From the NCBI GenBank assembly GCA_017963875.1, contig JAGCTA010000461.1, positions 1-25,523 of the forward strand: a stretch of DNA of 25,523 bases, read 5' to 3'. Below, one piece after another: positions 8,801 to 25,523 of the stretch. Position 1 is the first letter of the stretch. The number at the start of each line of letters is the position of its first letter. The translations under genes and the position numbers were made by a program. Origin of the DNA: Victivallales bacterium (GTDB lineage Bacteria; Verrucomicrobiota; Lentisphaeria; Oligosphaerales; Oligosphaeraceae). The notes beneath the pieces are model-generated. The model ran no database searches. It worked only from the letters and a program-made list of their open reading frames with translations, and had not been told where the DNA came from.

Positions 8801-9333
8801 TCTTCATCGACCATCCTGGAACCGAGTTGCGAGTCTGGCTCTGGCAGTCATGGGACTTCGGCATTGACGGCATTCTCGTCTGGTGCAGTAATCTGTGGCA
8901 TAGCGCCACCGCCTATCCTGATTCTCTCCAGAATCCATACGAAGACCCCATGGGATGGGTGACTGGATATGATGTGCCCAAAGGCGTCAGAAATCCATGG
9001 GGCAACGGTGACGGACGATTCCTCTACCCGCCAGAAAGCCTCCAGAACGGCCCGCAAGACACTGTTTCTTTCGACAAACCCGTTGATAGCATTCGCCTTG
9101 AAATGCTTCGTGACGGTATTGAGGACTATGAATATTTCGTCATGCTGAAACGCCTCCTCTCCCAAAAAGCGGACAAGTTGCCTCCCGAAAAGAAGGCCGC
9201 ATACGAAGACCTGCTCAAAGTCCCTGCGGATGTCTCCACAACGCTGACGGAGTTCACTCGCGCGCCTGAACCTCTGGAACTCCATCGTGCAAAACTAGCA
9301 AAGGCAATTGCTGAGGTTATCGCCATTCCATAA
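5872..9333 (+). CDS. Secreted GH123/DUF4091-like glycoside hydrolase with carbohydrate-binding modules
   Basis: A 1153-residue exported protein with signal peptide MTTKIPRLFCLVCILAISVIA and a good ribosome site (AAGGAG, 5856-5861). Residues about 22-145 form a CBM4/9-like beta-sandwich. Residues about 300-590 are beta-rich Ig-like segments. The catalytic part begins near residue 600 and contains YIYWFDEPDKKDYEFV, whose adjacent Asp897-Glu898 pair matches the Asp-Glu dyad of GH123 N-acetylgalactosaminidases. It ends with the DUF4091 signature RLEMLRDGIEDYEYFVMLKRL (around 1075-1095). A second CBM-like module (about 647-795) interrupts the barrel between its first strands and the catalytic dyad. 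The GH123 relation is from family knowledge; the real substrate is unknown. Amino-sugar cleavage would fit the neighbouring nagBA. Confidence 0.8.
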   Translation: MTTKIPRLFCLVCILAISVIAEPLIVSEWTPSNKNATSSNDGILSVRGNGEDCIYWLSPQKTFTPGTAYCISFLAKGDDASGNTLVSGPLCTNVDVGIPPAQWKRYSNIFAAPVTPKGENTRIRLGQWHLKGSASFSDLTIAPVMPVFLESNGIVLGDGERISTNEYLFQPFFNSPSRNFSRPLHKNNAIFNTSRWVFNDRLYIIYKFQLNGRKQLSGRVQASVHYHVGGVLKAEVSKDETQWIQIGTLDKKGLLDAQVPESFFPADTVFLKLSATTSESGDIRDAAPGSFQIGQLSYKATLTGPPVEITGTTSFFELPVQDDSLAVKVKDLGDAMPGDKSHVTLSVKNLKDSTLKLTPHIVLSLANSDIRLESNASSLTLKPQQEQEVTIPYSITDVGDWRMVIFLTESYSLATTINIPDYLRQDYGELLADEGKVAIWSTSSGWKIPRNRKPPQKRGTALKISAALNEAEAAQLVLTPHDALTNLTATATALNGPNGAVLPASAVEILNVYYHEVKIQSDSSSIKGFWPDALPPIKPGFSISANKTQPLWVRVTIPTNAVPGIYHGSINLKADGWQTSIPLEIEAYPFILPDKMTVKTAFGFYDSITWRYHGAKKIEDKRKILEMYWEHLGKHHISPYNPAPLDPCSIKLLGNNNQWNGGTRIKDAPKTGEYALEIVDNSTTGQQCATYNEPILLQNGSYAFSFDAKTATPNQQFMVTISSMDDQKQWISRNNKDFVFTGDVNWKSFSGEFKITNPLTKYIGITLRPTCWTEKMELTGTTTFANFSLRHIESDKSIVDVSSFKPADYHDFNILFNWDAWDKAVEHAFKTYHFDGMRFPLQGLGGGTFHSRNAPKLFGFTEGTPEYDHLIKIYFKGVEEHLAEKGLLGSAYIYWFDEPDKKDYEFVMNGFSKIKKYAPRLRRLLTEQVEPELIGGPNLWCPLTPAVTKESVAERHAAGDEYWWYVCTGPKAPYATLFIDHPGTELRVWLWQSWDFGIDGILVWCSNLWHSATAYPDSLQNPYEDPMGWVTGYDVPKGVRNPWGNGDGRFLYPPESLQNGPQDTVSFDKPVDSIRLEMLRDGIEDYEYFVMLKRLLSQKADKLPPEKKAAYEDLLKVPADVSTTLTEFTRAPEPLELHRAKLAKAIAEVIAIP

Positions 9334-9407: not shown

Positions 9408-12400
9408 ATGCGCCAAATCATCACATTTATCCTGCTTTCCTGCTTCATCCTTTGTGCCCAATACACGCGCGTTTTGCAACTTTCTCTGAATCCATCAGAG
9501 CCGCATCAAAACGCGACTGTATCCCTTGGCACCAAAGACGCAGCACCCGTGTTGACGCTCGCCTTTGGCGACAATCTTGCAATCAAAGATGCCTCTGGCC
9601 AAGCGTTGCTCAACACACCTCTTCCGTTGAAAAGTTCCTCGCAAATTCTTCAACTATGGTTCGCGAATGACCATACGCAGGTTGTGCTGGACGGACAAAT
9701 CGTCGCTTCTGGGAAAGCAGCAGGGAACATCCCACAACGCCCAACAATAGCATCCTCGCATTCTAAATTTACAGAAAAGGCGAAACCGCTCTTCCAACGA
9801 CTCTCTTCTTTGAATTTTCAGGATGATTTTGCACGCGCGGAGGAAAACGGCGAGGCGCTTTGGAAGCCGTTGTCTGGTCATTTTGCGCCGAATGCCTCTT
9901 TGAATCCAGGCAGTGCCCTAGGCGCATTCCAACTGTGGGGAAGCACCGAAAATAACTCCGAAGCCATCGCCGTCTCCACGACATCCCGCTGGTTCTGGCG
10001 TGACATCCGTTTCGGCGTATCCGCCATCATGCCGACCGAATCCCAAACATGGGGGCTCGTCTTCGCCTATAACTCCCCTGACGATTTTCTTCGTGCGGAA
10101 TTCGACCGAACCACTGCCGAAGCACGGCTTGTCCAAAGGTCTGCTGGAAAAGACGCGGTACTTCAACGTGGCAGAATCGTCATGACAACATCCTGGACGC
10201 GTGCGGAAATCATCGCAGCCAAAGGGGAAATCACTGTATTTTTCGGGGCGCAGAAACTCTTCACATACAAGGAAAACCGCAGTTTCGCTGGACAAATTGG
10301 ACTGTATCTGAAAAACGCACCGACGGCGTTCTTCGATGATGTGTCCGTGACTTCCTGCACCGTCTGCCCTGAACAACTGGATTCGCCTTTCGGCCCATGC
10401 GAACGTAACTGGTCGGACTTCTCTGACAAACAGTTCTTCACGGATGCCTATATGTCACATTGGGCTCATCCGCGCAGTTTTTGGAATGATGGCCCTGACA
10501 AGTTGCTCTGGTTTCGTTCACGCCTCTTCAACGACATCAGTTTTTCCTGGAAGGCGAAAGGCGCTTTGAAACCTGTTTCCGCCCTCCGACTTCGGATGTT
10601 CACAGATGACACGAAACCCGAAAGCGGCTTTCTGCTGACAGTCGCGGAAAGCAAGGCCGACCTGACTTTGGACGGAGCGAAACTTGCCGAAGCCCCCGCC
10701 CCCGCGACCATTTTCAACCATTTCTGTCAACGCGACGTCGGATTTCACGGCAACTTTCAATGACAAAGAGCGCATCAGTTGGAAGGCACCTTCGTTCGTC
10801 GAACGCAAAGGCTTCATTGCGACATCGCTTGGCCCTGCGGCAGGCGTCGCAAATCTAAACGCCCCCGACTGGCGCGACACCGCTCTCGTCTCCTCAAGCC
10901 ATCGTATGGATTACAGTTTCGAGCACGCGCCGACCGCCTGGTTTCCACAAGCAGGAGATTGGAAGGCGACCCACCGCTGGGCCTGCGTACCCAAATGGTC
11001 GTTCTTCGCAGGCAGGGGCACGCCAAGTCCTGCGGAAGTCGATAATGGCAATGCCGTCCTCTGGAACCTGCGTAAAATCTCGGGGGACTTTGACCTTGAA
11101 ATCTTCGCCGCGCCACTGGAAGGCACGCCGCAACGTGCACATTTCACCTACCCTCTCAACCTCAACCTATCTTTTGCGGTGGATGGGAGCAACCTTGATT
11201 CAGGCTATACGTTCATCAACGGCATCTACGACATGCCATCACGCCTTTTCCTGCATGACAAGCAGCTGGCAACCAATCAAGACCGCGTCATACCAACGCT
11301 GCGACTGCAAGAAAACGCATGGTACAACCGCGTCACGCGCGTCTGGCAGCATTTCCGTATCCAGCGCCGCAATGGCCGAATCCTTGTCGATTCTGCCTCG
11401 AACGGCGACCATGCGGAATATCTTCCGCTTAAACGCGTCTTCGACCAACCAGATAGCCTAGATGCTGCGAAACCTTCTCAATTTGCGGTCTGGGCTTGGG
11501 GAGGCAACGGCCTGGCCATCGCTCGTGCCACGCTGTCATTTCAAAACTCCCCTGGCGGTGCCCTCCCCCCTGCGGATGTCCCACGGTCCAAAGTCATCAA
11601 GGGCGACAGCAAGACCGAACCAGAGTCCTACACACGCGTCCACAACCCGATTTCAGGCGGACAGTTTGTCACTGTGCTGCATGATACGCCGTTTGAACTA
11701 AACAAACTGAATCACCTGGAAATGCTTGTCCGCCCTGCCAAAAACACGCATCTGAGCCTCTTCGCCACCATCAACGGAAATGCATTCGAGACAATCATCA
11801 ACGGACCGAAGATTACCAGAGACTATGCGTGCCTTTTAGAAGATACAGTCACCCCCGCAGAGGGAATGCCAGGCTGGCTGAAGTTGGACGTTCTGATGGA
11901 TTCACATAAACTAAGCAACTATTTCCGCCCTGATGAGCCGCTCGTCTGCACATCCATCGCGATTGCAAGTCCGTATGACACTGTCGAGGAAATCGCAGGG
12001 CTTGGCGTCAATCCACGCGGAGCCACGCTGGACTATACGCCTATAAAACTGTCTTTTTCACGGATAATGTATAAAATGGCACCTCCACGTTCAATCATTG
12101 CAAATGCGCACGGACGTCGTCTAATGGTTGATTTTGAGGACGATATGGGCGAATTCCAACGTTTCGGCGGTCATGACGGAGCCGCATTGATTCGCGTTCT
12201 GCGACCGCTAAAACAGCCCGTCGGCCTCCCTGACAAGGTATTGCGTTTGCTCAACCAGAATATCGGCGGCACGGCTGGCGCGACAATTACCGCCACGCCG
12301 TTCAACCTCACGGCGTTCCCCAAAATCGGTTTCGACTACGCAATTCCACAAGGCTATGAACTTAATCTCATCGCCGTCACAGACAGTGGTTGCTTTGAAA

Positions 12401-13737
12401 TCAAGTTGACGGGCGCAGACCACACGTGGCCGATTGTCGGAGACGCAAAAGTCACGCAGGACGGCCAGTGGCATCACACGGAAATCGACCTCGAAGCCAT
12501 GCTCAAGCCACGTTTGAAAGAGCCTTTTGTCATTCGTAAACTCATCTTCGCGGACTCCAACCGAATGTCAACCTATCAGAGACTCGCATTCTTCATTGAC
12601 AATTTCCAGTTCATCCCGCGCCTCGCCAACGGCGACAAAATATCCTTTACAAACGACGGAACAAACGATAAAGATATGGCTCTGGCAGTCTGTTGCGACA
12701 AATCACCGAACACTGCCCCAGACATCAAGACCGCCGTTGCTGCCAACGAAGTCCCCTTGGCAATTCCCGCCGACGGTGCCACATGGCTCCACATCATTCG
12801 AACAAGCAACGGAAAACCTTATTTGACAAAACACCTGCGAATTGAGACCGCTGCCGCGCCTGTCAAAAACGATGTCCCAGCGCAGCAAAAAGCCACCGTT
12901 GCGCTCCAGCCGCCTCTTATCTCGTACATTCCGTCAGACAGACTTGTGCGTGATACGTTTGAACTTCCTGCAGGAATGTCTGAAAACGCAGAAGTCATGG
13001 GCGGCTTTGAAATCCGCCGTCAAGCCTGGGCAATTCGTAACACAGATACCGCCGCGACGGGAACGGCCTGTGGCGAACTAGTCAACCTCAATCCAGGCGA
13101 CTTCTGCTCCATTTTCTTCCGCAAGGCCGCATGGGACGTCAACCGCTGGCCATGTTTCTCCTTCAACTACCGTTTCCGCCAATCTGGCTGCGCACTCGTC
13201 CTTTCGCTCCTCGTCAACGATGCCATGACCATCGTCGAATGGACGGGCAAGGACAGACATGGCAGTTATTTCACCGAAGGTCTCGTCGGCAAGACTAATG
13301 AATACGCCATTCAGGACGGGCAGTGGCATGAATCCGTCTGCGACCTGCGTTCGCAATTGCTGAAGACACGCTTCGCCAAATCCATTCCGCCAACAGGAAT
13401 CACTGCCACGGAACTTTCGACCTGGGCGACAAACCACCATGGCGGTGGCTACAGCAATCCCGCCGATGCCCGTGTCTATATCGACAACTTCACCATCTAT
13501 TCCAATCATGGAAAGAATCCTGCCTTCGAGTGGCAGCAACGCGTAACGGACGCGGGCTATGCCGTCATTTTCGACCAGAAGCCCGATACCATCCCAGAGG
13601 AAAAAGTCACGCAGAAAGAATCTCGAAGCGAGTACAAAGACGTTGCTCCTGGCACGTGGTTCATCCATGTCCGCACACAGGACAAGTCAGGCGCTTGGAG
13701 TGCGGCAGCACACAAGAGAATTATTATTGAAAAATAA
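9408..13737 (+). pseudogene. Secreted LamG-like multidomain protein, frameshifted
   Basis: Two overlapping frames read as one protein: 9408-10763 (signal peptide MRQIITFILLSCFILCAQ plus a LamG/DUF1080-like beta-sandwich, about residues 135-310) and about 10684-13737. The second frame continues with another concanavalin-like domain (TAWFPQAGDWKATHRWACVPKW type), further carbohydrate-binding-like sandwiches, and a C-terminal Ig-like domain ending WFIHVRTQDKSGAWS. Removing one base restores a single frame of 1442 residues. The second frame has only a TTG start with no ribosome site and begins mid-domain, so it is not a separate gene. The break lies between 10666 and 10763, most likely in the C5-G-C5 tract at 10693-10703. 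Ribosome site AGGAT precedes ATG 9408. It probably binds or presents glycans for its neighbour; no catalytic motif was recognised. Decay, sequencing error or slippage could explain the break. Confidence 0.75.
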
Positions 13738-14712: not shown

Positions 14713-14743
14713 AAAGATAAATGCTTTCGCTCTTTATCTTTTT
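14713..14743. terminator. Bidirectional terminator between convergent genes
   Basis: AAAGATAAA (14713-14721) is complementary to TTTATCTTT (14733-14741), with an 11-base loop and T-rich flanks on the + strand and T-rich complement on the other. It lies between the three-gene cassette and the convergent permease, and its right arm overlaps the permease stop codon (14734-14736). Confidence 0.55.
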
Positions 14744-15669
14744 CTCAGTAGCATCCAGAGAAAGAACGGTCCACCAAGGAGTGCTGTGACGATTCCGACG
14801 GGCAGTTCGGAAGGGGCTAGAATCACACGGCCCAGAGCATCGCAGAATACAAGAAGCGTTCCCCCAAAAAGCAGACTTACGGGAACCAACCGACGGTGGT
14901 TCGCCCCAATCAACAGCCTGCCTACATGTGGGCTGACCATGCCGACAAAGCCAATCGGGCCACAGATGGCAACAATGCAGCCTACCGTCAGCGAAACCGC
15001 GATGTGCAACAGCAGTTTAGTGCGGGCAAGCGAAACGCCTCGGCTGGCGGCAAAGTCGTCGCCGATGGCAAGCAGGTTCAGGGCATCCGCATTGACGGCG
15101 ATGACAGCGCCGCCAATGGCGCAGATGCATGCGAGAAGCGCCACCTCGCCATAATCATACACATCCAAGCTTCCCATCAGCCATCGCATCACCTGCATGA
15201 CCTCCCCTGCCGTACCGATGTACTGCAAAAACATAATGACGCTTGAAAAGAAAAAACTGACGGCCACGCCTGCCAAAAGCAATACATCATCGCCGCCTCG
15301 ATGGCGCAGTTTCGACACGCCTGTAATCAGAAAAAACGCCCCTATCGCCCCAAGAAAAGCGGCAATGTTCTGAATTCCAATGCCCGTCAGATGAAGTTGA
15401 ACCGCGATTGCGACACCTAGTGCAGCACCGCCTGACACGCCAAGCGTGTACGGAGTCGCAAGGACATTGCGAAAAAGTCCCTGGTAGCACATTCCGCACA
15501 GAGAAAGCCCCGCACCTGCAAGAAAACCTGCAAGCACTCTCGGCACGCGTATGCGCCAGAACACTGTTGGAACGTCAATGCTGACGCTCCCGACAAACGG
15601 TGCCGCAAGAACAACAAGCACGCAGCATACTGCTCCAACGAATAATTTGATGGATTGTCTTTTGAGCAT
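14734..15669 (-). CDS. FecCD/BtuC-family ABC transporter permease
   Basis: An inner-membrane permease subunit of 311 residues for iron-siderophore or corrinoid import. It has about nine hydrophobic segments and family signatures: RVPRVLAGFLAGAGLSLCGMCYQGLFRNVLATPYTLGVSGGA near the N-terminus and GPIGFVGMVSPHVGRLLIG (about residues 240-258), the loop that contacts the ATPase, followed by LPVGIVTALLGGPFFLWMLLRKR at the end. It is the only minus-strand gene, and no BtuD-type ATPase or BtuF-type binding protein is encoded in the window. The nearby cobalamin riboswitch and BtuB-like receptor favour cobamide as substrate, but siderophore or heme import cannot be excluded. Confidence 0.9.
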   Translation of the reverse strand: MLKRQSIKLFVGAVCCVLVVLAAPFVGSVSIDVPTVFWRIRVPRVLAGFLAGAGLSLCGMCYQGLFRNVLATPYTLGVSGGAALGVAIAVQLHLTGIGIQNIAAFLGAIGAFFLITGVSKLRHRGGDDVLLLAGVAVSFFFSSVIMFLQYIGTAGEVMQVMRWLMGSLDVYDYGEVALLACICAIGGAVIAVNADALNLLAIGDDFAASRGVSLARTKLLLHIAVSLTVGCIVAICGPIGFVGMVSPHVGRLLIGANHRRLVPVSLLFGGTLLVFCDALGRVILAPSELPVGIVTALLGGPFFLWMLLRKR

Positions 15670-15955
15670 TTATGATACATAAGACCTTGTGTTTCAAAAA
15701 TCGTGGATTTCAGTATCGCCCAATTCCACAAGCGAGCAGGCTCTAGAAAAAGCATATACTGGATTCCCTCTATGCAAACGACTGTTCAGAAAATCTAATA
15801 TAGTATGTTCGATTTGCAAATATATCTGTCCCAGTTATAATTTGATGCCAGTGGCTCGTCTTCATTCCATTGTCCATCTGATAGTTGATTTTTCCCAATT
15901 CATGGATACATTAACTCTAAAATAATAGAGTATTAGGATTTCATGACATGGCAAG
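15670..15955. other. Divergent intergenic control region
   Basis: An AT-rich gap of 286 bases between the minus-strand permease and the plus-strand Fe-S operon; both promoters must lie here. Visible elements are a perfect 10-bp palindrome ATTTGCAAAT (15812-15821), a weak TTGATT/TACATT promoter-like pair (15885-15890 and 15907-15912), and an inverted repeat ACTCTA/TAGAGT (15914-15919 and 15926-15931) just before the operon start. No second cobalamin riboswitch was found on either strand, and no RNA gene was recognised. Confidence 0.4.
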
Positions 15956-16972
15956 ATGAAATTTCAGGTCGGATATCAAAACAATCACCGTCTAGTTGAG
16001 TATCTACTCAAGCACAGGGAAACTGTTTCTGAAGTCTATTTTCCCTGGGGGGATTTCACTACTGGACGCGGTGTCATTCCCGACGATTCATTCCGCCAAA
16101 ACTTAACCGCTGATTTGCAGTCATTCGCCGCAGCAAAAATCCGTCTGACGCTTCTTCTAAACGGCAACTGCTATGGACAACGCGCCCTGGCGCGCTCCTT
16201 CTTCCAGAAACTCGGCGACACCGTCGATTTTCTCGCAGAGACATACGGAATTTCAGGCGTTACAACGGCATCGCCGCTGATAGCGCGATTTTTGAAAAAT
16301 AACTTTCCGCAATTGGAAATCCGCGCCTCCATCAACATGGAAATCGGAACAACGGAAGGCATTGAATATGTAGAAGACTATTTTGACAGTTTTTACCTGA
16401 AACGCGAGTTCAACTACGACAGAAATGTCATCCTGCGCATGCGCGATTTCTGCCATTCGAAAGGCAAGAAACTCTATATGCTTGCCAACAGTGGCTGCCT
16501 CAATTTCTGCTCTGCGCGGACATTCCACGACAACCTTGTCGCACATCAGCACGAAGTGGCAGAAATGGACAACGCCTTCGATTTCCACGGCGAATGCACA
16601 AGTTATCTCAAAAAAGATAATCATATGGAAGAACTGCTCTCAAAATCAAACTTCATCCGCCCTGAGGATATTCACCTATATGAAGACCTCTGCGACGGCA
16701 TGAAACTGGCAACGCGGACAAACTTCAACCCACTGGCGGTGGTCACTGCCTATTTTTCAGCCATGTGGCACGGCAATCTGCTTGATTTGACCGAACCTGC
16801 TCACTCTGAACTGTTGCATCCTGCAATCATCGACAACAAAAAAATCGCTGACGACTTCGCAGAACATCGCATGACGTGCAACCATGACTGCAACGCTTGC
16901 GGCTACTGCCGCAACGTACAGGCAAAAGCGACCGTCACATTGAATGAAAACCAAACACAACTCATGGAATAA
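15956..16972 (+). CDS. U32 peptidase-like Cys-rich Fe-S protein
   Basis: A 338-residue protein resembling the U32 family (RlhA, TrhP and UbiU/UbiV group), whose members are mostly not peptidases but Fe-S proteins in anaerobic hydroxylation or RNA modification. It shows YFPWGDFTTGRG near residue 29, ASINMEIGTTEG in the barrel, LYMLANSGCLNFC (Cys181, Cys185) followed by His-rich FHDNLVAHQHE, and a C-terminal cluster with Cys308, Cys312, Cys315 and Cys318 (CX3CX2CX2C), enough to hold a [4Fe-4S] centre. It is the first gene of an operon with three Fe-S reductase-like proteins, separated from the next by 18 bases. Start ATG 15956 has only a weak ribosome site. The reaction and substrate are unknown. 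Confidence 0.75.
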   Translation: MKFQVGYQNNHRLVEYLLKHRETVSEVYFPWGDFTTGRGVIPDDSFRQNLTADLQSFAAAKIRLTLLLNGNCYGQRALARSFFQKLGDTVDFLAETYGISGVTTASPLIARFLKNNFPQLEIRASINMEIGTTEGIEYVEDYFDSFYLKREFNYDRNVILRMRDFCHSKGKKLYMLANSGCLNFCSARTFHDNLVAHQHEVAEMDNAFDFHGECTSYLKKDNHMEELLSKSNFIRPEDIHLYEDLCDGMKLATRTNFNPLAVVTAYFSAMWHGNLLDLTEPAHSELLHPAIIDNKKIADDFAEHRMTCNHDCNACGYCRNVQAKATVTLNENQTQLME

Positions 16973-16990
16973 TAACCAAGGGAAACGCAA

Positions 16991-18058
16991 ATGCTGACCA
17001 GTCAAATGATCAAGGACGCCGCACTTGCGGCGGGCGCGGATATGTGCGGAATTGGCGACATGGCGCGATTCGACGGCGCACCGCGTGAAATGAATCCACA
17101 GTATCTTTTTCCTGAAGCCAAATCTATCATCGGCATGGTCTTCCGCATCCCACGAGGCGTGCAGCGCGGCATTGAGGAAGGCACGCAGTTCTACCAGTAT
17201 CCCTCGATGGCATACGGCGGAATCAACGAAATCTTCGCGCCGTCCGTGCTCTATCAGGTCGGGCAGTTGATTGAAGACAATGGCTATGAGGCTTTCATCT
17301 ACAGAAACACTGGTGCACGCGGTTGCGTGTCCGACATGGACGGGTCGCCTGGCAACACTCTGTCGCCAGAAGAGCAGATTGAAGTGATGAATCAGGCAAA
17401 GCGCAAGACAAACCACCACCGCTCCGTACAATTCACGCGCCCCGCACGCCCAGGTCAGGTTCCTCCTGACCTGCAATTCCACTTCCGCCTGGCGGCGGTT
17501 GCCTGCGGACTCGGTGAAATGGGCTGGAGCAAGATGTTCCTGACCAAGGAATTCGGTCCATTGCAACGCGTCGCTTTTATCTATACGGACGCAGAACTGG
17601 AACCTGATCCATTATACAGTGGCAAGCCACTGTGCCGCAGATGCTTCGCCTGTGTCAGAGAATGTCCTGGAGGCTGCCTAAGCCGCACGGAAAGCATCAA
17701 AGTCTCCATCGGAGGCAAAATATGCGAATGGGGCAAACTTGACGAATGGAAATGCTATGCGTTTTATACGCACGCGGGGCGGAAATTCAATCCATTCGTG
17801 CCAAAGGAAGTCTGGGACAAAAACGAAAATGGCGACCTGGACTTGCTTGAGGGCAAAGCCACGGCCAATGAAAAGGAGATCATGAAAGTCTATCGTGCGC
17901 TTGAAAAATACTTCCCGACGTGGGTTGGATACAACATGGCCAAATGTGGAGGTTGCATCCGAGCCTGTGTCAGCATGCTCGAAAAGAAAGGCGGATGCAT
18001 GGAAGGCCGCTTCAAGGAACCGTTGCGCACAGGTAAGGCGTGGGTCATGGACCGCTGA
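16991..18058 (+). CDS. QueG/reductive dehalogenase-like 4Fe-4S protein, paralogue 1
   Basis: A 355-residue soluble protein. The middle carries AAVACGLGEMGWSKMFLTKEFGPLQRVAFIYTDAEL (about residues 171-207), a pattern shared by epoxyqueuosine reductase (QueG) and RdhA reductive dehalogenases, where it belongs to the corrinoid-binding nitroreductase-like fold. It is followed by CX2CX2CX3CP (Cys215, 218, 221, 225) and a second set, Cys319, Cys322, Cys326 plus Cys337: two [4Fe-4S] clusters. No twin-arginine signal is present, so it is cytoplasmic. It is longer than the next two paralogues, with extra sequence around 105-155 and between the Cys motifs. A strong ribosome site, AAGGGAAA (16978-16985), precedes the ATG. 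It is probably a reductase of an unknown compound; true QueG is less likely because three divergent copies lie in tandem. Confidence 0.8.
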   Translation: MLTSQMIKDAALAAGADMCGIGDMARFDGAPREMNPQYLFPEAKSIIGMVFRIPRGVQRGIEEGTQFYQYPSMAYGGINEIFAPSVLYQVGQLIEDNGYEAFIYRNTGARGCVSDMDGSPGNTLSPEEQIEVMNQAKRKTNHHRSVQFTRPARPGQVPPDLQFHFRLAAVACGLGEMGWSKMFLTKEFGPLQRVAFIYTDAELEPDPLYSGKPLCRRCFACVRECPGGCLSRTESIKVSIGGKICEWGKLDEWKCYAFYTHAGRKFNPFVPKEVWDKNENGDLDLLEGKATANEKEIMKVYRALEKYFPTWVGYNMAKCGGCIRACVSMLEKKGGCMEGRFKEPLRTGKAWVMDR

Positions 18059-18076
18059 TAAAGGAGATTGCCAATT

Positions 18077-18982
18077 ATGATAAATGCTGAAATCATCAAA
18101 CAGAAAGCGCTGGAATACGGCGCGGCCGCTGTCGGCATCGGTGACATCAGACTTTTTGAAGGCGAAAACCCGCAGCGAGACCCTTTGCAGATACTGCCGC
18201 ACGCCAAGTGCATCATCGGTTTCCTCTTTCGTGTCCCTCGGGCGCTGTACCGCACGATGAACAACCACACGCAGTTCATGCAATACACGCAAATTGGGGT
18301 CAAGTACATCGACGAAGACCTCAGTGAAATCTTCCTGCTGAAAATGGGCGCGCTAATTGAAAATGAAGGATACGACGCATGTCTTCAGCGGAATGTCTCC
18401 AACCTGCGAATCAAAGGCGACCACACGACCAATCCCGAACTGGCGGACACGTATGAACTCGTCCATGCAGAGGCCGTCGCACCTGGCAAGCCCGTACCTG
18501 ACGTCATCATTGATTTCAACCGCGCCGCCGCCATCTGTGGACTTGGATGCGAAGGCGATTCAGGGCACGTCATCGCACCAAAACTCGGGCCTTTCCTGCG
18601 CATGGCTTACATCATTACAGACGCTCCGCTGGACTGTGACAAGCCTTTTACTGGCAATCTCTGCGACCATTGCGGCAAATGCAAGGACGCCTGCCCGGGC
18701 AAGGCAATCGGAGAAAAAGAGATCAACACCTGGCAGTGTGCGGTTTATTATCGTGGTGCCCACAAATCCAACCCATTCATGACCGATGAATTCCTCGCTG
18801 GCAATCCCGAACGCGAGAAAATCATCGACGGAGAAAAGACTTTCGACCGCGAATCCGCACGCGAACTATACAAGCAAATCAATTTTTTACCTAGCCGCTC
18901 AACGGGGTACATCCCCTGCATCTGTGGTCGGGCCTGCGACATGGCGTGTTTTCATCATTTAAAGGACAAAGGTGCACTATGA
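18077..18982 (+). CDS. QueG/reductive dehalogenase-like 4Fe-4S protein, paralogue 2
   Basis: A 301-residue cytoplasmic paralogue of the preceding gene. It has the N-terminal YGAAAVGIGDIRLFEG motif, the central RAAAICGLGCEGDSGHVI and GPFLRMAYIITDAPL, then CX2CX2CX3CP (Cys196, 199, 202, 206) and a C-terminal CICGRACDMAC set. I chose ATG 18077 because AAGGAG (18061-18066) is 10 bases upstream; TTG 18068 is too close to it. The TGA overlaps the next ATG. Downstream of the first Cys set it shares WQCAVYYRGAHKSNPFM with paralogue 3 (WQCAAYYKGANRSKNPFM), so 2 and 3 are closer to each other than to 1. They may act as a heteromeric complex or on different substrates. Confidence 0.8.
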   Translation: MINAEIIKQKALEYGAAAVGIGDIRLFEGENPQRDPLQILPHAKCIIGFLFRVPRALYRTMNNHTQFMQYTQIGVKYIDEDLSEIFLLKMGALIENEGYDACLQRNVSNLRIKGDHTTNPELADTYELVHAEAVAPGKPVPDVIIDFNRAAAICGLGCEGDSGHVIAPKLGPFLRMAYIITDAPLDCDKPFTGNLCDHCGKCKDACPGKAIGEKEINTWQCAVYYRGAHKSNPFMTDEFLAGNPEREKIIDGEKTFDRESARELYKQINFLPSRSTGYIPCICGRACDMACFHHLKDKGAL

Positions 18983-19908
18983 ATCAACTGAAACAAAAAA
19001 TCATCGATGCCTTGAAGAAAAGCGCCGCAGACATCGTCTGCTTTGGTAGCGCGGATAAAATGCGCGACCCAGCGGTGAAAACGCTTTTCCCAGAAGCAAA
19101 GACCGTCATTTGCGTCGCATTCCGTCAATTGCGCGGCACTCGCCGAGGCATAGAGGAAGGCACCGTCTATTATCAATACACGACCTCTGTTGAAACCGTA
19201 GAGGAAGTGATGATACCTGGTGCCCTGCTCCGTGGTTGCTCCATTTTGGAAGAGGCTGGTTTCGAGGCATTGCCGCAACGCCGTTTCCAATTGGTGATGC
19301 AACAAGAGGGCGAGACCAATTTCGAGGTCGCCTACGATGAAATCTACCGTGGTCTGAAATCAGAGACTGTTTTGAATTTCGAGCAGTGCGCTGAAGACTG
19401 CGGGTTAGGCGAAATCGGTCTATCTGGCTCGATTCTGACTGACGATTTTGGCCCGAATCAACGATGGGGATTCATCATCACGGATGCAGAACTGCCCACA
19501 GACGAACCAGCCAAGCCACATCTGTGCGACCATTGCGGCGAATGTATCAAGGCCTGCCCTGGCCATGCGCTCGCCGCTGACGGCAAACGCGATTCGTGGC
19601 AATGCGCGGCATACTACAAAGGCGCAAACCGCAGCAAGAATCCCTTCATGCCGCCAAATGCATTTGCCAACGACCCAGAACGACTGAAAATCATCGCAGG
19701 CGAAGCCGACCTCAGTCCAGAAAGGGCGCGGGAAATCATCAACCAGATTAATTTCTACCCTCCGATAAAACACGCGATGGTCGCAAGTATATGCGGACGT
19801 GCCTGTGATACTGCGTGTTATGTCCATCTTGAGGAAAAGGGCGTGCTGAAGCGGAAGTTCAACACGCCATTCCGCAAGCGGCCTGTGTGGAACCTGCCTC
19901 TTGAATAA
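18979..19908 (+). CDS. QueG/reductive dehalogenase-like 4Fe-4S protein, paralogue 3
   Basis: A 309-residue third paralogue. It has FPEAKTVICVAFRQLRGTRRGIEEGTVYYQYT (shared with paralogue 1), CAEDCGLGEIGLSGSIL and FGPNQRWGFIITDAEL, CX2CX2CX3CP (Cys183, 186, 189, 193), and a C-terminal SICGRACDTACYVHLEEKGVL set for a second cluster. ATG 18979 overlaps the preceding stop (ATGA) with AAAGGTG just upstream; a GTG at 18946 would extend it into the previous gene without support. It ends the operon; a stem-loop follows within 10 bases. Its N-terminus keeps the same length and order as the other two, so all three arose by duplication of one ancestor. Confidence 0.8.
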   Translation: MNQLKQKIIDALKKSAADIVCFGSADKMRDPAVKTLFPEAKTVICVAFRQLRGTRRGIEEGTVYYQYTTSVETVEEVMIPGALLRGCSILEEAGFEALPQRRFQLVMQQEGETNFEVAYDEIYRGLKSETVLNFEQCAEDCGLGEIGLSGSILTDDFGPNQRWGFIITDAELPTDEPAKPHLCDHCGECIKACPGHALAADGKRDSWQCAAYYKGANRSKNPFMPPNAFANDPERLKIIAGEADLSPERAREIINQINFYPPIKHAMVASICGRACDTACYVHLEEKGVLKRKFNTPFRKRPVWNLPLE

Positions 19909-19990: not shown

Positions 19991-20138
19991 GTCCTCGGGT
20001 AGTTGCCTCTGACCGAATTGCACCGAACACCCAGTTCAGACCAGCAGCAATCATATCCGGTGAATCCAGTGAAAACCTGGAACTGTCGCGCAACCGTAAA
20101 TGGCATTCCGCCATGAGTCGGATCCCGTCCCCGAGGGG
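19991..20138 (+). ncRNA. Cobalamin riboswitch
   Basis: This segment has the order and wording of the B12-sensing aptamer: TTGCCTCTGACC (20003-20014), the core TCCGGTGAATCCAG (20056-20069), CTGTCGCGCAACCGTAA (20083-20099), and a B12 box AGTCGGATCCCG (20116-20127). The closing P1 helix pairs CCTCGGG (19993-19999) with CCCGAGG (20130-20136). It lies directly upstream of the TonB-dependent receptor and should shut that gene down when cobalamin is plentiful. The platform after P1 holds a short TGCG/CGCA hairpin (20157-20169) ending at the Shine-Dalgarno AAGGAAGG (20169-20176) and no clear U-tract, so control of translation is more likely than of termination. TTGCCT (20003-20008) is complementary to AGGCAA next to that site. 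Confidence 0.9.
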
Positions 20139-20181
20139 AAACCCAGCCACAATTTGTGCGCGTAACGCAAGGAAGGCAAAA

Positions 20182-22176
20182 ATGAACCTCAAGCAAAAAA
20201 TCACAAGAACACTCTCCATCCCCATGCTCTGTTTCCTGACAGCGACTTTTGCTCAGGAAGCGGAGCAAAAAGAAGAAAACACTCAACCACAGGAACTTCC
20301 AGCCATTACCGTCACTGGAGTTCGTACAAATGCCCGACCAGAAACGCTCGGGCAGACGGTCACCATCATCGACCGTGAGCAATTGGACAAATCCATGTTG
20401 CCATTTGTGACGGATGTACTCCGCGACCAACCTGGCATTTATTACCGCTCATTCGGACCACTTGCAAGTGATCTCAGCATTTCCCTTCGAGGCATGGAGC
20501 GGTATCATACGAAACTCCTCATTGATGGAATTCCCTATCTCGACAATTCGCAAACAGCTGGCCTCGCACCAATGTTTGATTCACTGTCGTTGAGCCTCAT
20601 CGACCGCATCGAAATCGTGAAAGGCGCCGTCTCCCTCCAAGGCAGTTCCGCCATGGGCGGCATCGTCAACATCATCACGAGAAAGCCGCCAGAGGATGGC
20701 GCAGTGCATGGAATCATCAACATGGAGGCAGGCAGCCATGGTCGTTTTGACACCAGTGCCATCTTCTATGGACGAAGTTCCATCGTTGACTACAAAGTTG
20801 GTGTCGCCCGTCAACGCGAACGCGGTATTTCCGTGTATCGCGGGGGACCAGCAGCAAATATGGCTCTCAATGGCGATGATGACCATTTCCGCTCCATGAA
20901 CTATTTTGCTGATTTGGGATTCCAACTCACCAAGGAATGGCGTGTTGAACTCGGCGGTTCATTCACAGATACTGATGAAGAATACGACGACGGATACGTC
21001 AACTGGGACGAATCCATTGTGGCAGATACTGACAACATCTGGCTCCGCAAATCCATGGGACATGGAAAAATCGAAGGAAAGGGACTTCTTGACGGTGCCC
21101 TCGACCTTGTTTTCTCATACGCGCAGACACGTGCAGACCGTCAGTATCCTGGCGTCGGACCAGGAAACGGCCGACGTTTTATAGGAGACATAACACAGCT
21201 GAATTCCCAGGCGACATTGCATATCAACGACTGGAATACGTTGGTTGGAGGCATTGACTTCCAGCATGAACAGGTCCGCGGCTTCATGATCAACTATGGC
21301 AATACCAAATACAAGGCATGGGATGAGACATACCGCACTGTCGGATACTATCTCGGCTACCAGATGGAACCTATCGAGAATCTTTTCCTCAACGCAAACT
21401 TCCGTTTTAATCACCATTCAGACTTTGACCACGAATGGACAGGAGACGTTTCCGCAAGGTATCTTCTTGAGCCGACTGGCACCACTTTCCGCACATCCTA
21501 CGGCAAAGGCTATCGCGCCCCCAATCCATACGAACTCATGCCCTTGGCAAACACTCTCTGGGGCTGGCGCGGCAATCCCAATCTGAAGCCAGAGAAATCA
21601 CGCACTTGGGATATTGGAATCGATCAAGAAATCATTGGCAAGAAATTGACGGCTGACATCACCTATTTCCAGAATGTCGTCGAGAACTACATTGAAGCCT
21701 TCGGCGGATATGACGCCAATGCACTCTTGTCTTATCCAACCAATGAGGACAAGATGAAAATTCGCGGCATTGAAACTGGAATCAATGCAAAACCGCTGGA
21801 TACCCTTCTCCTGCGTGCAGGCTATACATGGCAACATTATAGAAATCTCCAAAACGGCAGACATTTCTGTGTTCTCATCCCAGACCATCAATTCACCTTT
21901 GATGCGACCTGGACTCCTATCGAGCAACTTGACCTGAACATCGGTGGCGTGCTTGTCGGTCCTCGGCAAAACGTAAATGGCGCAGGTTCTGCGAACAAGA
22001 TGCATAATTACTGCCTCATGCACGCAACCGCAGGCTGGAAATTCAATGAGAATTTCAAAGTCTATGCGCGCATAGACAATCTCCTGAATGAGAACTATGC
22101 AACTGTGGATTCCTGGGGAACCATCTACAATACCTATGGACGCGTCTATTACATTGGAATGACTTATTCATTCTAA
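20182..22176 (+). CDS. btuB: TonB-dependent outer-membrane receptor, BtuB-like
   Basis: An outer-membrane gated barrel importing vitamin B12 or another corrinoid. It is 664 residues, close to BtuB (about 600). Signal peptide MNLKQKITRTLSIPMLCFLTATFAQ; a TonB box-like LPAITVTGVR follows at about 38-47. The plug domain has TVTIIDREQLDKS, VLRDQPGIYYRSFG, SLRGMERYHTKLLIDGIPYLD and IEIVKGAVSLQGSSAMGGIVNIITR. The barrel ends with YYIGMTYSF, with the C-terminal Phe used for outer-membrane assembly. ATG 20182 is chosen because AAGGAAGG lies 5 bases before it; an upstream TTG at 19957 lies inside the promoter and riboswitch. Substrate assignment rests mainly on the riboswitch. DUF3450 and ExbB/ExbD/TonB genes follow in one direction. 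Confidence 0.88.
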   Translation: MNLKQKITRTLSIPMLCFLTATFAQEAEQKEENTQPQELPAITVTGVRTNARPETLGQTVTIIDREQLDKSMLPFVTDVLRDQPGIYYRSFGPLASDLSISLRGMERYHTKLLIDGIPYLDNSQTAGLAPMFDSLSLSLIDRIEIVKGAVSLQGSSAMGGIVNIITRKPPEDGAVHGIINMEAGSHGRFDTSAIFYGRSSIVDYKVGVARQRERGISVYRGGPAANMALNGDDDHFRSMNYFADLGFQLTKEWRVELGGSFTDTDEEYDDGYVNWDESIVADTDNIWLRKSMGHGKIEGKGLLDGALDLVFSYAQTRADRQYPGVGPGNGRRFIGDITQLNSQATLHINDWNTLVGGIDFQHEQVRGFMINYGNTKYKAWDETYRTVGYYLGYQMEPIENLFLNANFRFNHHSDFDHEWTGDVSARYLLEPTGTTFRTSYGKGYRAPNPYELMPLANTLWGWRGNPNLKPEKSRTWDIGIDQEIIGKKLTADITYFQNVVENYIEAFGGYDANALLSYPTNEDKMKIRGIETGINAKPLDTLLLRAGYTWQHYRNLQNGRHFCVLIPDHQFTFDATWTPIEQLDLNIGGVLVGPRQNVNGAGSANKMHNYCLMHATAGWKFNENFKVYARIDNLLNENYATVDSWGTIYNTYGRVYYIGMTYSF

Positions 22177-22177
22177 A

Positions 22178-23011
22178 ATGGACATTATCCCTTCCCTTCT
22201 GCGGCAAAAGTCGCAGAAGGGAGGCTCTGGTATTTTTGACACTATTTTAGATATTGTGAACAAACACCTTCCATTCTTTATTTTTTTATCTCTCCTTTCC
22301 CTTGCGGAATCCTCCCCAAAGGAAATCGCTGACTACTGCCATGCGCTGTCGGGAGAATTGGAAGCCTGCAAGAAATATCTCATCGAATGCGAAACGCAGC
22401 AAAAGGATTTCATTCTCCGAAGTCAGGACCGCGAAAAAGCCGTGGAGAAAGACAACGCGAGACTGAAGTCCGAGATTGAAAAACTGCTCAAGGAGAAGCA
22501 ACTTCTCTTGGCGGCAAAGGGCAGTCTCGCAGCAGAACACCAATCACTGGCCCAGACACACGCTGAATGTGAACGGCCAATCGAACAGGCGGAACAAACA
22601 CTCGAATTCCAAAAGGCTCTCTTACCGAACTCATTGGCTGAAACACTTCTTCCTCCGTTGAAAAGCGATGACCATGCGGCACGTCTTCGTCGTTTCCTTG
22701 ATTCTCTGGAAGCAATAAGGGAATTCAACCGCCAGGCACCGCCGCCAGTTTCGCACGTAATTAAAGGCCCCGACGGTATAGTACACGAATTTCAGATTAT
22801 CTATTTTGGCCTGTCGCTCGCATACGCCTTCTGCAATGAAGCGGAAATCGCGGGCATGGGCATTCGGCAAGGGGGGGAATGGACTTGGCAATGGAACTCG
22901 GAATGGGTTCCACTCATCAGAAAAGCCTTTGAAATACGCATCGGCAAACGTCCGCCAGAACTGCTTCGTCTCCCCATGCCACCGATTTCACGAGGAGGTG
23001 AGGCAAAATGA
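22178..23011 (+). CDS. DUF3450-family periplasmic coiled-coil protein
   Basis: A protein of the DUF3450 type, found as first gene of exbB-exbB-exbD-tonB clusters and thought to assist the motor from the periplasm. It has a signal-like stretch NKHLPFFIFLSLLSLAES (28-45), a long heptad coiled coil (about 48-150), then GIVHEFQIIYFGLSLAYAFCNEAEIAGMG and a C-terminal KAFEIRIGKRPPELLRLPM, the family core. The listed start, ATG 22178, gives 277 residues but puts 27 residues before the signal peptide and makes a strong hairpin (22191-22224) coding. GTG 22256 would place the signal peptide at the very N-terminus and is my preferred biological start, though it lacks a close ribosome site. The stop overlaps the next gene (ATGA). 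Confidence 0.75.
   Translation: MDIIPSLLRQKSQKGGSGIFDTILDIVNKHLPFFIFLSLLSLAESSPKEIADYCHALSGELEACKKYLIECETQQKDFILRSQDREKAVEKDNARLKSEIEKLLKEKQLLLAAKGSLAAEHQSLAQTHAECERPIEQAEQTLEFQKALLPNSLAETLLPPLKSDDHAARLRRFLDSLEAIREFNRQAPPPVSHVIKGPDGIVHEFQIIYFGLSLAYAFCNEAEIAGMGIRQGGEWTWQWNSEWVPLIRKAFEIRIGKRPPELLRLPMPPISRGGEAK
22191..22224 (+). promoter_or_regulatory. Strong hairpin after the receptor gene
   Basis: Fifteen paired bases, including two G-U pairs, close an AAAA tetraloop; arms 22191-22205 and 22210-22224. TATTTTT follows 6 bases later. It may be a leaky terminator or a processing site that separates receptor and motor expression. The right arm contains AAGGGAGG (22217-22224), a perfect Shine-Dalgarno-like sequence, so the hairpin could also hide a ribosome site. 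Confidence 0.55.
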
Positions 23012-24207
23012 AACGTCTGCCGATACTTGTCATTTTCCTCGTGCATCTGTTGCTTGTCGCGCAAGTCGAGACCAATCCATTGGATTTCATCGCCCGCATC
23101 CGCAGTGAAATCGAAACATGCCGCACGGAAGCGGCAAACGTCCGCAAAGCCACGGAAGATGCCTGGAAAGCCCATGCGGCACGCATGGAGACTCTTCGCA
23201 AAGAAAATGATGAACTTCTCAATCAACTTGATCTGCTGAAAGACGAAATTGCTGACATCAAGAGTGAAAACGCCATTGCAGCAAGAGAGAATGCCAATGC
23301 ACGTATCAAAGAACGGCAATTGACCGCACTGCTCCCAGAAGAATCAACATCTTCAAATCTTCCTGAAAAAGTCACTGCATTTCTAGCCGAAAAGCAGTCT
23401 GAACTGAAAACGTTGCTTCAGCCGCCAACACTTTTTCCAGTTATTTTCAAAGATTCTTCTGGACGTGTAACAAACGGCGAGAAAATAAGTTATGGTCCGT
23501 TGTCGCTATGTTTCAGTTATCTCGACTCAGGCCAACTTTACATAAATGACGATGAAAAAACACTTCCCGAATTCCACTGTTTAAAGCAGTCATTTGACAG
23601 AGACATCACTTTTCCTCTGGACATCACAGGAAAACACCCCGAACTCCTGACAGAGCCATCGGGGCTCGTAAAGCATCTACGCCAAGGCGGTCTCATGATG
23701 ATTCCAATTCTGCTGCTTGGAATATCCTGCATCATCATCATGGTCTTGAAAATCGTGGAGATGGTTCTCCACAGACCGTCCATGGATTTGCAGGCTTTGG
23801 AGGACACGGCAAAAAGCACCCATGCGGTTTGTGATGCACTTGAGGATGAACTGTTCTCATTGGCTCAGCAACGTCTTGCGAAGCATGGCCATTTGCTCTT
23901 CTGGCTCAGCGTCAGCGCATCTGCCGCGCCTTTGCTTGGCCTGTTGGGAACTGTCACTGGAATGATACACACGTTCCGACTCATCACTTTCTTCGGCGTC
24001 GGAGACGCACGACTGCTTGCGGACGGTATTTCCGAGGCTCTGATTACCACTGAGGCTGGTCTCTGCATTGCGATTCCCGCCCTGCTCTGCCATGCCTGGT
24101 TCAACCGCAGACTACGCCGCATTTCCACGGAACTAGAGGGCAAAATCACCCAACTCTGCAATAATGCCTCCTCAATACAAGAATCATCACCGCAGGAGCA
24201 ACCATGA
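23008..24207 (+). CDS. MotA/TolQ/ExbB proton-channel protein with periplasmic coiled-coil N-terminus
   Basis: A 399-residue inner-membrane motor subunit. Signal peptide MKRLPILVIFLVHLLLVAQ, then about 200 residues of periplasmic sequence: a coiled coil (26-105) and a DUF3450-like domain (about 140-190, ISYGPLSLCFSYLDSGQLYI). The ExbB part follows with three membrane segments: GLMMIPILLLGISCIIIMVL (about 229-248), LFWLSVSASAAPLLGLLGTVTGM (about 290-314) and ALITTEAGLCIAIPALLCHAW (about 336-356). These carry the PLLGLLGTVTGMI and TTEAGL signatures that line the ion path. It starts on an ATGA overlap with the DUF3450 gene and ends on another. The N-terminus parallels the preceding protein (both end their coiled coil in a short FQIIYFG/ISYGPLS-type block), suggesting a duplicated module fused to ExbB. 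Confidence 0.85.
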   Translation: MKRLPILVIFLVHLLLVAQVETNPLDFIARIRSEIETCRTEAANVRKATEDAWKAHAARMETLRKENDELLNQLDLLKDEIADIKSENAIAARENANARIKERQLTALLPEESTSSNLPEKVTAFLAEKQSELKTLLQPPTLFPVIFKDSSGRVTNGEKISYGPLSLCFSYLDSGQLYINDDEKTLPEFHCLKQSFDRDITFPLDITGKHPELLTEPSGLVKHLRQGGLMMIPILLLGISCIIIMVLKIVEMVLHRPSMDLQALEDTAKSTHAVCDALEDELFSLAQQRLAKHGHLLFWLSVSASAAPLLGLLGTVTGMIHTFRLITFFGVGDARLLADGISEALITTEAGLCIAIPALLCHAWFNRRLRRISTELEGKITQLCNNASSIQESSPQEQP

Positions 24208-24584
24208 TTCTCGACTATCTGAAAACAGGTGGCTTCCTGATGATTCCAATTGCCGCAGTCACTTTTCTGATGTGGCACTGCTATTTTTCGGAACTTGTTT
24301 CTCTGAAATGCCCCAACAGTCATTCCAAGGAAAACACTGACCTTCATTTCATGGCGGCGCTTGTCGCCGCCGCTCCGCTTTTGGGACTGCTTGGAACCGT
24401 CATCGGCATGATTGACACGTTTCATGCGACAGCAACAATCGCATCCGCTGGTCCAGACGCCGCATCTTTAGCAGACGGCATCGGCAAGGCACTTGTCACA
24501 ACCCAGGCTGGCCTGGTATCTGCAATTCCAGGCGCACTTGCGCTCGCTCACCTAAGGCATATCCAGAAGAAGCGCCATGCGTAA
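24204..24584 (+). CDS. exbB: Short ExbB/TolQ-like proton-channel protein
   Basis: A 126-residue inner-membrane subunit, shorter than classic ExbB (about 240) because most of the cytoplasmic loop is missing. Three membrane segments are visible: GGFLMIPIAAVTFLMWHCYF (9-28), FMAALVAAAPLLGLLGTVIGMI (about 49-70), and ALVTTQAGLVSAIPGALALAHL (about 95-116), with both ion-path signatures kept. ATG 24204 overlaps the stop of the long ExbB, and its own stop is overlapped 8 bases by exbD. Together with the long ExbB it would form the stator around ExbD. Confidence 0.87.
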   Translation: MILDYLKTGGFLMIPIAAVTFLMWHCYFSELVSLKCPNSHSKENTDLHFMAALVAAAPLLGLLGTVIGMIDTFHATATIASAGPDAASLADGIGKALVTTQAGLVSAIPGALALAHLRHIQKKRHA

Positions 24585-24984
24585 TCGTCACCTCCAGATG
24601 CCGTCGGATTCACAGGCGGAAATCAACATGTCACCCATGGTGGACATGATTTTCCTCCTGCTTATCTTCTTCATGGTAACGACTGTATTCACAAAGGATG
24701 CAGGCATAGACATCATGCGCCCGACAGCAGAAACAGCCACTGAACTACCAGACAACACTTTGGTTCTCACGCTTTCGGGGCATGGAGAAATCAGACATTC
24801 AGGACAACTTTACCAACTAAAACAGATTCCTGCGTTGCTCAAAGAACAAATTGACGGCAACGGAACAGTCACAATCATCGCCGACAAAATGGCTTCTACA
24901 GGCCTGACTATTCAACTCATTGATCAGTGCAGACTTGGCGGAATTGAAAATGTCAGTATCGCAGCATCAACGGAGTCGCCATGA
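24577..24984 (+). CDS. exbD: ExbD/TolR-family biopolymer transport protein
   Basis: A 135-residue protein with a short cytoplasmic N-terminus, one membrane helix and a periplasmic C-terminal domain. The helix NMSPMVDMIFLLLIFFMVTTVF (17-38) carries Asp23, matching the essential proton-carrying Asp25 of E. coli ExbD. The periplasmic end (about 60-135) has the TolR-like alternating pattern with VTIIADKMASTGLTIQLIDQCRLGGIENVSIA. It couples proton flow through ExbB to TonB movement. ATG 24577 overlaps the exbB stop by 8 bases, and its TGA overlaps the tonB ATG. Confidence 0.92.
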   Translation: MRNRHLQMPSDSQAEINMSPMVDMIFLLLIFFMVTTVFTKDAGIDIMRPTAETATELPDNTLVLTLSGHGEIRHSGQLYQLKQIPALLKEQIDGNGTVTIIADKMASTGLTIQLIDQCRLGGIENVSIAASTESP

Positions 24985-25523
24985 CCACAGGCAATTCCAT
25001 TCATCCATTTATTCTGCGTGCGCTGATTTGGATTCTTTCTGCCTTGGCGACCGTCACCATCCTGCTCGTTTTTCCATTGTTAGAGACGACTGAACCACCA
25101 CCTCAGATTCCCAAACTCCCAACGCCAATTCCTCTACGAATTGCACCGTCAAAACATCAGCCCACTGAAACTGTTCAGACGCAATCAGCCATGACAGCAA
25201 CTGCGTACAGTCGTGGCGACACAGCAACGATTTCATTGCCAAAGCCTCTCCCCCCCCCTCCTGAACTACTCTCCCCCGTTCTGCCGCAAGAACCTGTTGC
25301 CAATCCCGCTGAAACACAAGCACAGGTGAAACAAATTGAATTGTCCATAGAAACAAAAGAACCGCAAAAAGAAGAACAAACCGTAAAAGTACCTGTTGCG
25401 GAAGTTCCTATGGTAGAAGAACCTGTAGCAGAAGAACCTACAATTGAGGCACCTGCGGCAAAAGTTCCTGCGGCAAAAGTTCCTGCGGCAAAAGTTCCTG
25501 CGGCAAAAGTTCCTGCGGCAAAA
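24981..25523 (+). CDS. tonB: TonB-like energy transducer, 3'-partial
   Basis: 181 codons are visible before the window ends. The N-terminus MTTGNSIHPFILRALIWILSALATVTILLVFPLL provides one signal-anchor helix (about 11-34). A long Pro-rich periplasmic spacer follows: PPPQIPKLPTPIPLR, PKPLPPPPELLSPVLPQEP, then nine pentapeptide units from nt 25389. The C-terminal domain that binds the receptor's TonB box lies beyond the window. ATG 24981 overlaps the exbD stop (ATGA). A run of nine C (25250-25258) and perfect DNA repeats make the gene prone to length and frame changes. The assignment rests on architecture and position; a TolA-like or other Pro-rich anchor protein is the alternative. Confidence 0.85.
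   Translation, partial: MTTGNSIHPFILRALIWILSALATVTILLVFPLLETTEPPPQIPKLPTPIPLRIAPSKHQPTETVQTQSAMTATAYSRGDTATISLPKPLPPPPELLSPVLPQEPVANPAETQAQVKQIELSIETKEPQKEEQTVKVPVAEVPMVEEPVAEEPTIEAPAAKVPAAKVPAAKVPAAKVPAAK
25389..25523 (+). repeat. 15-bp tandem repeat in tonB spacer
   Basis: Nine in-frame 15-base units encode VPVAE, VPMVE, EPVAE, EPTIE, APAAK and then VPAAK four times. The last four (25464-25523) are identical at DNA level, unit GTTCCTGCGGCAAAA, and run to the very end of the window, so the total copy number is unknown. The unit before them differs by two bases. Confidence 0.95.

Follow-up and report, generated by a model that had tools for sequence, protein, structure and literature searches.

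A conserved four-gene operon of a Victivallales bacterium may encode a class III cobalamin-type redox enzyme with a U32-fold partner

The window analysed here is the whole of a 25,523-nucleotide stretch from a Victivallales bacterium (GenBank assembly GCA_017963875.1, contig JAGCTA010000461.1, forward strand), and at 15956 to 19908 it carries an operon of four genes, a U32-like gene followed by three paralogues that we call A, B and C. We find that this gene order recurs at many other loci, that A-like and U32 genes also stand together in diverged operons, and that A is predicted to have the fold of the class III cobalamin enzymes. Our confidence is evenly divided on the reading that we favour, namely that the operon encodes a cytoplasmic class III cobalamin-type redox enzyme of an uncharacterised subfamily, with a U32 partner and a sugar-linked substrate.

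All four genes lie on the forward strand with the tight spacing reported in the preliminary description. The U32-like gene (15956..16972, 338 aa) is followed after 18 bases by A (16991..18058, 355 aa) and A after another 18 bases by B (18077..18982, 301 aa), which overlaps C (18979..19908, 309 aa) by 4 bases. We start B at the ATG of position 18077, since at least 95% of 81 homologues keep the methionine there. The paralogy that had been noticed is evident in identities of 31% (A/B), 39% (B/C) and 31% (A/C), and so are the two cysteine sets in each protein, a CX2CX2CX3C motif and four further conserved cysteines. The first set of A (C215, C218, C221 and C225, codons within 17633..17665) is kept in 81/81 sequences and the second consists of C255, C319, C322 and C326; in the alignments all eight are kept in 81/81 A, 79 to 80 of 81 B and 75/77 C sequences, the remainder being gaps. 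By these eight cysteines A is predicted to carry the two [4Fe-4S] clusters of a class III enzyme. The GLG...FGP...TDA pattern ascribed to all three paralogues needs amending for B, which has LGP in place of FGP. Directly 5' of the operon, an AT-rich near-palindrome (15888-15954) may be an operator; it was matched on both strands in a relaxed Rfam search, where the MIR159 matches are chance.

A survey of other genomes bears out the suggestion that these genes form a conserved joint operon. Relatives of A came from one scan of GTDB contigs, from which the best 80 of 194 stretches were kept (81 with the window), and genes were called by longest-open-reading-frame scripts, which give rise to false calls in GC-rich loci. 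B stands next after A in 80/80 loci and C next after B in 76/80, the other 4 contigs ending within the operon, while a U32 gene adjoins the A-B-C genes in 73/80 (72 upstream and one, L024, downstream); the complete U32-A-B-C order is present in 68 loci, L047 included. This co-occurrence of the four genes is far beyond chance. By their record titles, the loci belong to Lentisphaeria/Victivallales, Opitutales, Kiritimatiellae (one short contig), Planctomycetia and Clostridia, the last including Lachnospiraceae, Oscillospiraceae, Christensenella and others, and many come from animal guts. One named isolate, Oligosphaera ethanolica DSM 24202, has A-B-C at L033 and three A-U32 pairs at L118, L119 and L122. 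The A proteins of the Clostridia loci are 77-81% identical to that of the window, which suggests that the gene is under strong constraint, has been transferred horizontally or both; no plasmid match was obtained with A as the query. Eight Clostridia loci (L047, L058, L063, L065, L066, L069, L071 and L073) have a gene of 115-133 aa, cupin-like by eye, between A and B.

The corrinoid-type fold proposed earlier is borne out for A, which is modelled as a nitroreductase-type module fused to a ferredoxin domain. The structures that match it best are all B12 proteins, well above flavin proteins: QueG and reductive dehalogenase (RDH) share first place, followed by MMACHC and CblD, and in sequence comparisons RDH comes first. 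None of the four gene products scores above the curated cut-off of any Pfam or NCBIfam model, and profile searches confirm that A, B and C fall outside the QueG and RdhA families. Against TIGR00276 (QueG) they score 25.2, 43.1 and 50.4 bits with a cut-off of 200, and against TIGR02486 (RdhA) 39.9, 49.4 and 40.7 bits with a cut-off of 160.35, which rules out true QueG or RdhA identity. The operon differs from QueG (PDB 5d6s, 5d08) in its three paralogues, its U32 gene and its sugar-type regulators, and in lacking the D-Y-H catalytic motif (0/81 A, 0/81 B and 0/77 C) and any room for the C-terminal domain of QueG. It differs from RdhA/PceA (PDB 8q4h, 4uqu) in the 355-aa length of A, in the multi-paralogue arrangement and in the lack of an export signal: judged by reading, the N-termini of the window's A, B and C have no twin-arginine signal, as had been stated, and 3/81 A, 9/81 B and 3/77 C sequences have an RR pair among their first 40 residues. 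The MMACHC/CblD chaperones are different again, since the human B12-processing enzyme is described as lacking a ferredoxin domain (PMC4646009), whereas A, B and C each have two four-cysteine sets.

The U32-like protein has the fold of peptidase U32 (PF01136; TrhP and RlhA; PDB 5d88) but scores only 15.6 bits (E 0.01) against a cut-off of 22.4, and what we take to be the canonical U32 signature is absent in all 73 homologues aligned (window included, L047 copy left out). A motif of the type NSGCLNxC...FHDN is found in 62/73 instead. The C-terminal CX3CX2CX2C motif highlighted in the preliminary description is present but is kept in only 52-54 of the 73; the invariant cysteines are C72, C181, C185 and C214 (each 73/73), which probably bind an Fe-S cluster.

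The same fold could also serve a different purpose, and it is conceivable, if rather unlikely, that A, B and C are corrinoid-free electron carriers holding Fe-S clusters (or flavin) and that they supply the U32-like protein, which would be the true catalyst, with electrons. The ranking of B12 proteins above flavin proteins among the structural matches argues against such carriers, as does the conservation of A. Pairwise identity of A among the loci is at least 68% with a median of 79%, compared to medians of 63% for B, 57% for C and 48% for U32, and this highest conservation among the four proteins fits a catalyst better than a carrier.

The three paralogues had been described as equal copies but are better read as one tyrosine-bearing subunit, A, and two partners without the tyrosine, B and C. 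In a joint alignment of 81/81 A, 78/81 B and 75/77 C sequences (five outside 270-400 aa left out), position 75 is Tyr in 81/81 A, Val in 78/78 B and Val (68), Ile (6) or Leu (1) in the 75 C sequences. Two other polar positions are less specific, with Asn106 in all A and also in 43/78 B, and Asp160 in all A and 71/78 B, with Glu in C. Class III enzymes have one tyrosine above the corrin in common (PMC4646009), and Tyr75 (codon 17213..17215) is a candidate for this active-site residue, presumably equivalent to QueG Tyr101 and PceA Tyr246; an attempt to map it onto RdhA by an N-terminal profile gave chance matches only. A tree of 89 sequences with QueG as the outgroup separates strict A (support 1.0), B (0.999) and C (1.0) and makes B and C sisters (0.995), its deeper nodes being weak. 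The fetched regions yield 50 further paralogues, including four strict copies (three at L128 and one at L130), and of these 50 paralogues 37 have Tyr at position 75, 2 a gap and 11 another residue; the mixed sets A2 and A3 were aligned for a family tally alone. Ten loci have two or three separate paralogues (L111, L112, L113, L123, L127, L128, L129, L131, L132 and L147), and exactly one member bears the tyrosine in nine of them and two in L131, with the provisos that L128 is a second strict A-B-C set, that the partner in L112 is gapped at this position and that some pairs of loci are close relatives. Proteins of 774-876 aa at L115 (9512-12142), L116 (8598-11228) and L117 (8833-11157) resemble two fused A-like domains, as do those at L124 (8888-11218) and L133 (4331-6787), and some of these lie near regulators that are IclR- or GntR-like by eye.

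A and U32 also go together without B or C. Diverged operons have adjacent A-like and U32 genes, with an IclR-like gene between or beside them at L118, L140, L144, L146, L150 and L153 and a LacI-like gene in front of them at L137 (all by eye), and a U32 gene lies within 2.5 kb of 20/50 paralogues (19/49 without the strict copy at L130); these regions were picked for holding A or U32 matches and are thus non-random, and some come from close relatives. In a phylum sample of 194 genomes, a strong U32 match (E ≤1e-60) was present in 29/31 genomes with a strong A match (E ≤1e-30) compared to 13/163 without (Fisher p 3.7e-22), with both thresholds set after the tables had been viewed, and all 17 genomes with strict A have U32. 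When every match at E 1e-3 was counted, the figures were 33/61 and 16/133 (p 1.7e-9); neither p value is corrected for kinship. Three genomes without a strong A match have tandem copies of U32 proteins related to that of the window (L161, 6294-12296; L162, 6142-9643; L163, 6269-9701), divergent beside a protein of 1177-1203 aa that by eye resembles a B12-dependent methionine synthase (metH-like).

By its regulators and neighbours, the operon looks linked to sugar metabolism, and the recurring context consists of sugar-type regulators rather than B12 genes. One upstream gene was taken from each of 68/80 loci, usually the nearest of at least about 150 aa and sometimes the second nearest (some short-contig loci were left out, and the L047 entry is its U32 gene), and these comprise 31 HTH_18 (AraC), 12 LacI and 3 Cupin_2 matches. 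The 67 downstream genes from 65 loci, some of them second nearest, include DUF5696 (7), GFO_IDH_MocA (7), GH63/trehalase-like (5) and AP_endonuc_2 (2), and a cluster of unnamed proteins of about 574 aa is present in 13/81 loci. At L152, an FGGY kinase and an L-fucose-isomerase-like gene lie next to an A-U32 pair, and L154 and L158, from close relatives, have a similar arrangement by eye; a GFO_IDH/AP_endonuc_2 protein lies near the A-like genes of L115. At L112, a glycyl radical enzyme (6783-8858; PF02901, PF01228) stands beside a tandem pair of A-like genes. In Lentisphaeria, the palindrome TAACTGT-N9-ACAGTTA, a pattern derived from these same loci, has 9 copies with at most one mismatch in 1.32 Mb, all within 50 bases upstream of the operon, and with two mismatches allowed 10/12 lie within 150 bases upstream; the window does not share this operator at up to 3 mismatches. 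The 9-mer AAAACAAAC or its complement occurs in 17/44 upstream stretches of Clostridia loci (L037 and later) and may be the site of the AraC-type regulator. Demethylation of 4-O-methylglucuronate was considered as a substrate class, but it was an idea only and a search of the open literature gave nothing relevant to it.

In the window itself, the operon has possible B12 genes on both sides. On one flank is a FecCD permease (14734-15669, reverse strand); it had been called BtuC-like, and a permease of the FecCD family is indeed present, but no BtuC model reaches its cut-off. On the other flank, the cobalamin riboswitch described earlier (20062-20127) scores 35.4 bits (E 0.0011), below the Rfam gathering cut-off of 50, but is probably real because it lies directly before a BtuB-like receptor gene, whose start, judged by the signal-like N-terminus, is likely at 20182. 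The row from 20062 to 25523 continues with ExbB/TolQ-like, ExbD-like and TonB-like genes (the last two by eye) and looks like a B12-uptake operon. Further off, a single interrupted gene may account for two long open reading frames that overlap in different frames (9408-10763 and 10684-13737). This position between permease and uptake locus, together with the MMACHC and CblD folds, would suit a role in B12 processing or corrinoid remodelling, in which A to C remove or exchange corrinoid ligands like MMACHC for cobamide salvage. We regard this as improbable, since tblastn (E 1e-5) finds the FecCD or BtuB gene at none of the 80 other loci within the flanks retrieved, which extend up to 10 kb, AraC and LacI regulators are the commonest upstream genes, and strict A is found in 17/194 genomes compared to 182 with a B12-binding protein. 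The B12 neighbours are thus ruled out as a conserved context and no longer count as evidence for corrinoid use, for which they had been cited.

A reductive dehalogenase-like enzyme for natural organohalides is equally hard to credit in spite of the RDH matches, given scores of 40-49 bits against a cut-off of 160, a regulator and glycoside-hydrolase context that suggests carbohydrate and N-termini in the window that read as free of a Tat-type signal. Least probable is RNA modification by a QueG-like reductase with a U32 hydroxylase, as in TrhP and RlhA, acting on tRNA or rRNA: wobble bases are the target of both QueG and TrhP (PMC4646009, PMC6599085) and QueG is above its cut-off in only 3/16 carriers searched, but the QueG scores of 25-50 bits, the missing DYH motif, the lack of space for the QueG C-terminal repeat domain, the missing U32 signature and the sugar-type regulators all speak against it.

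In the class III reading that we prefer, the nitroreductase-like module of A would bind a base-off corrinoid beside the two [4Fe-4S] clusters, through which electrons would run to the cobamide. The substrate would be a small compound derived from or attached to a sugar, in which A would cleave a C-O or similar bond by two-electron reduction, and Tyr75 is a candidate for the proton donor. As paralogous partners that lost the tyrosine, B and C would relay electrons or complete a heteromeric complex, and the U32-fold protein, as the regular partner of A, may handle the same substrate or supply electrons. More tentatively, and with considerable doubt, we suggest that the operon represents a new class III subfamily of cobamide enzymes with several subunits, in which a catalytic chain with the tyrosine acts together with paralogues that lack it and with a U32 Fe-S protein to strip hydroxyl or ether-linked alkyl groups reductively from sugars in anaerobic gut bacteria.

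Several observations weigh against this proposal, and the largest doubt concerns the binding of a corrinoid by A. The AF2 (AlphaFold2) model is free of cofactor, and a likely active-site loop (residues 111-147) has a predicted local distance difference test score mostly below 50. Neither sequence nor profile comparison aligns Tyr75 with the RdhA/QueG tyrosine, and its choice is not secure because Tyr104 is equally specific to A (81/81, with Gln in the aligned B and C). The lack of the FecCD and BtuB neighbours in the flanks of the other loci counts here too, and the PF02310 B12-binding proteins in 48/50 carrier genomes are uninformative because they are near universal in the phylum (182/194 genomes of the sample); a supply of B12 would allow corrinoid use without being evidence for it. 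The downstream genes vary, with no Pfam family in more than 7/67 and no single conserved enzyme to name the substrate, and hence indicate none. U32 is not beside A in 7/80 loci, among them L023 and L035, whose contigs start less than 350 bases from A; for six of the seven, U32 is encoded elsewhere in the genome, and a search of the L035 genome found none. Finally, 2/31 genomes with a strong A match lack a strong U32 match, and 13 genomes have U32 without a strong A match, which implies further roles for U32 proteins.

Those class III cobalamin enzymes that PMC4646009 (2015) names as characterised perform dehalogenation or epoxyqueuosine reduction. As the preliminary description had supposed, the operon appears undescribed: searches of the open literature, with subscription literature and preprints outside their scope, gave no description of it among the papers listed, and PMC6759758 was discarded as a prior one, as in the portion seen U32 and epoxyqueuosine reductase occur in the reference list only. 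The fold and the probable cofactors are those of a known class, while the literature searched has no account of the subfamily, of its multi-paralogue arrangement or of its pairing with U32. A widespread subfamily far from both known kinds of enzyme and tied to U32 and sugar-type regulators would make corrinoid chemistry in gut carbohydrate metabolism directly testable, and the U32 partner may help to explain the role of uncharacterised U32 subfamilies. If the removal of sugar substituents is indeed the reaction, it would add a third chemistry to dehalogenation and epoxide reduction in class III and would lead to uncommon sugars by a route that needs no oxygen.
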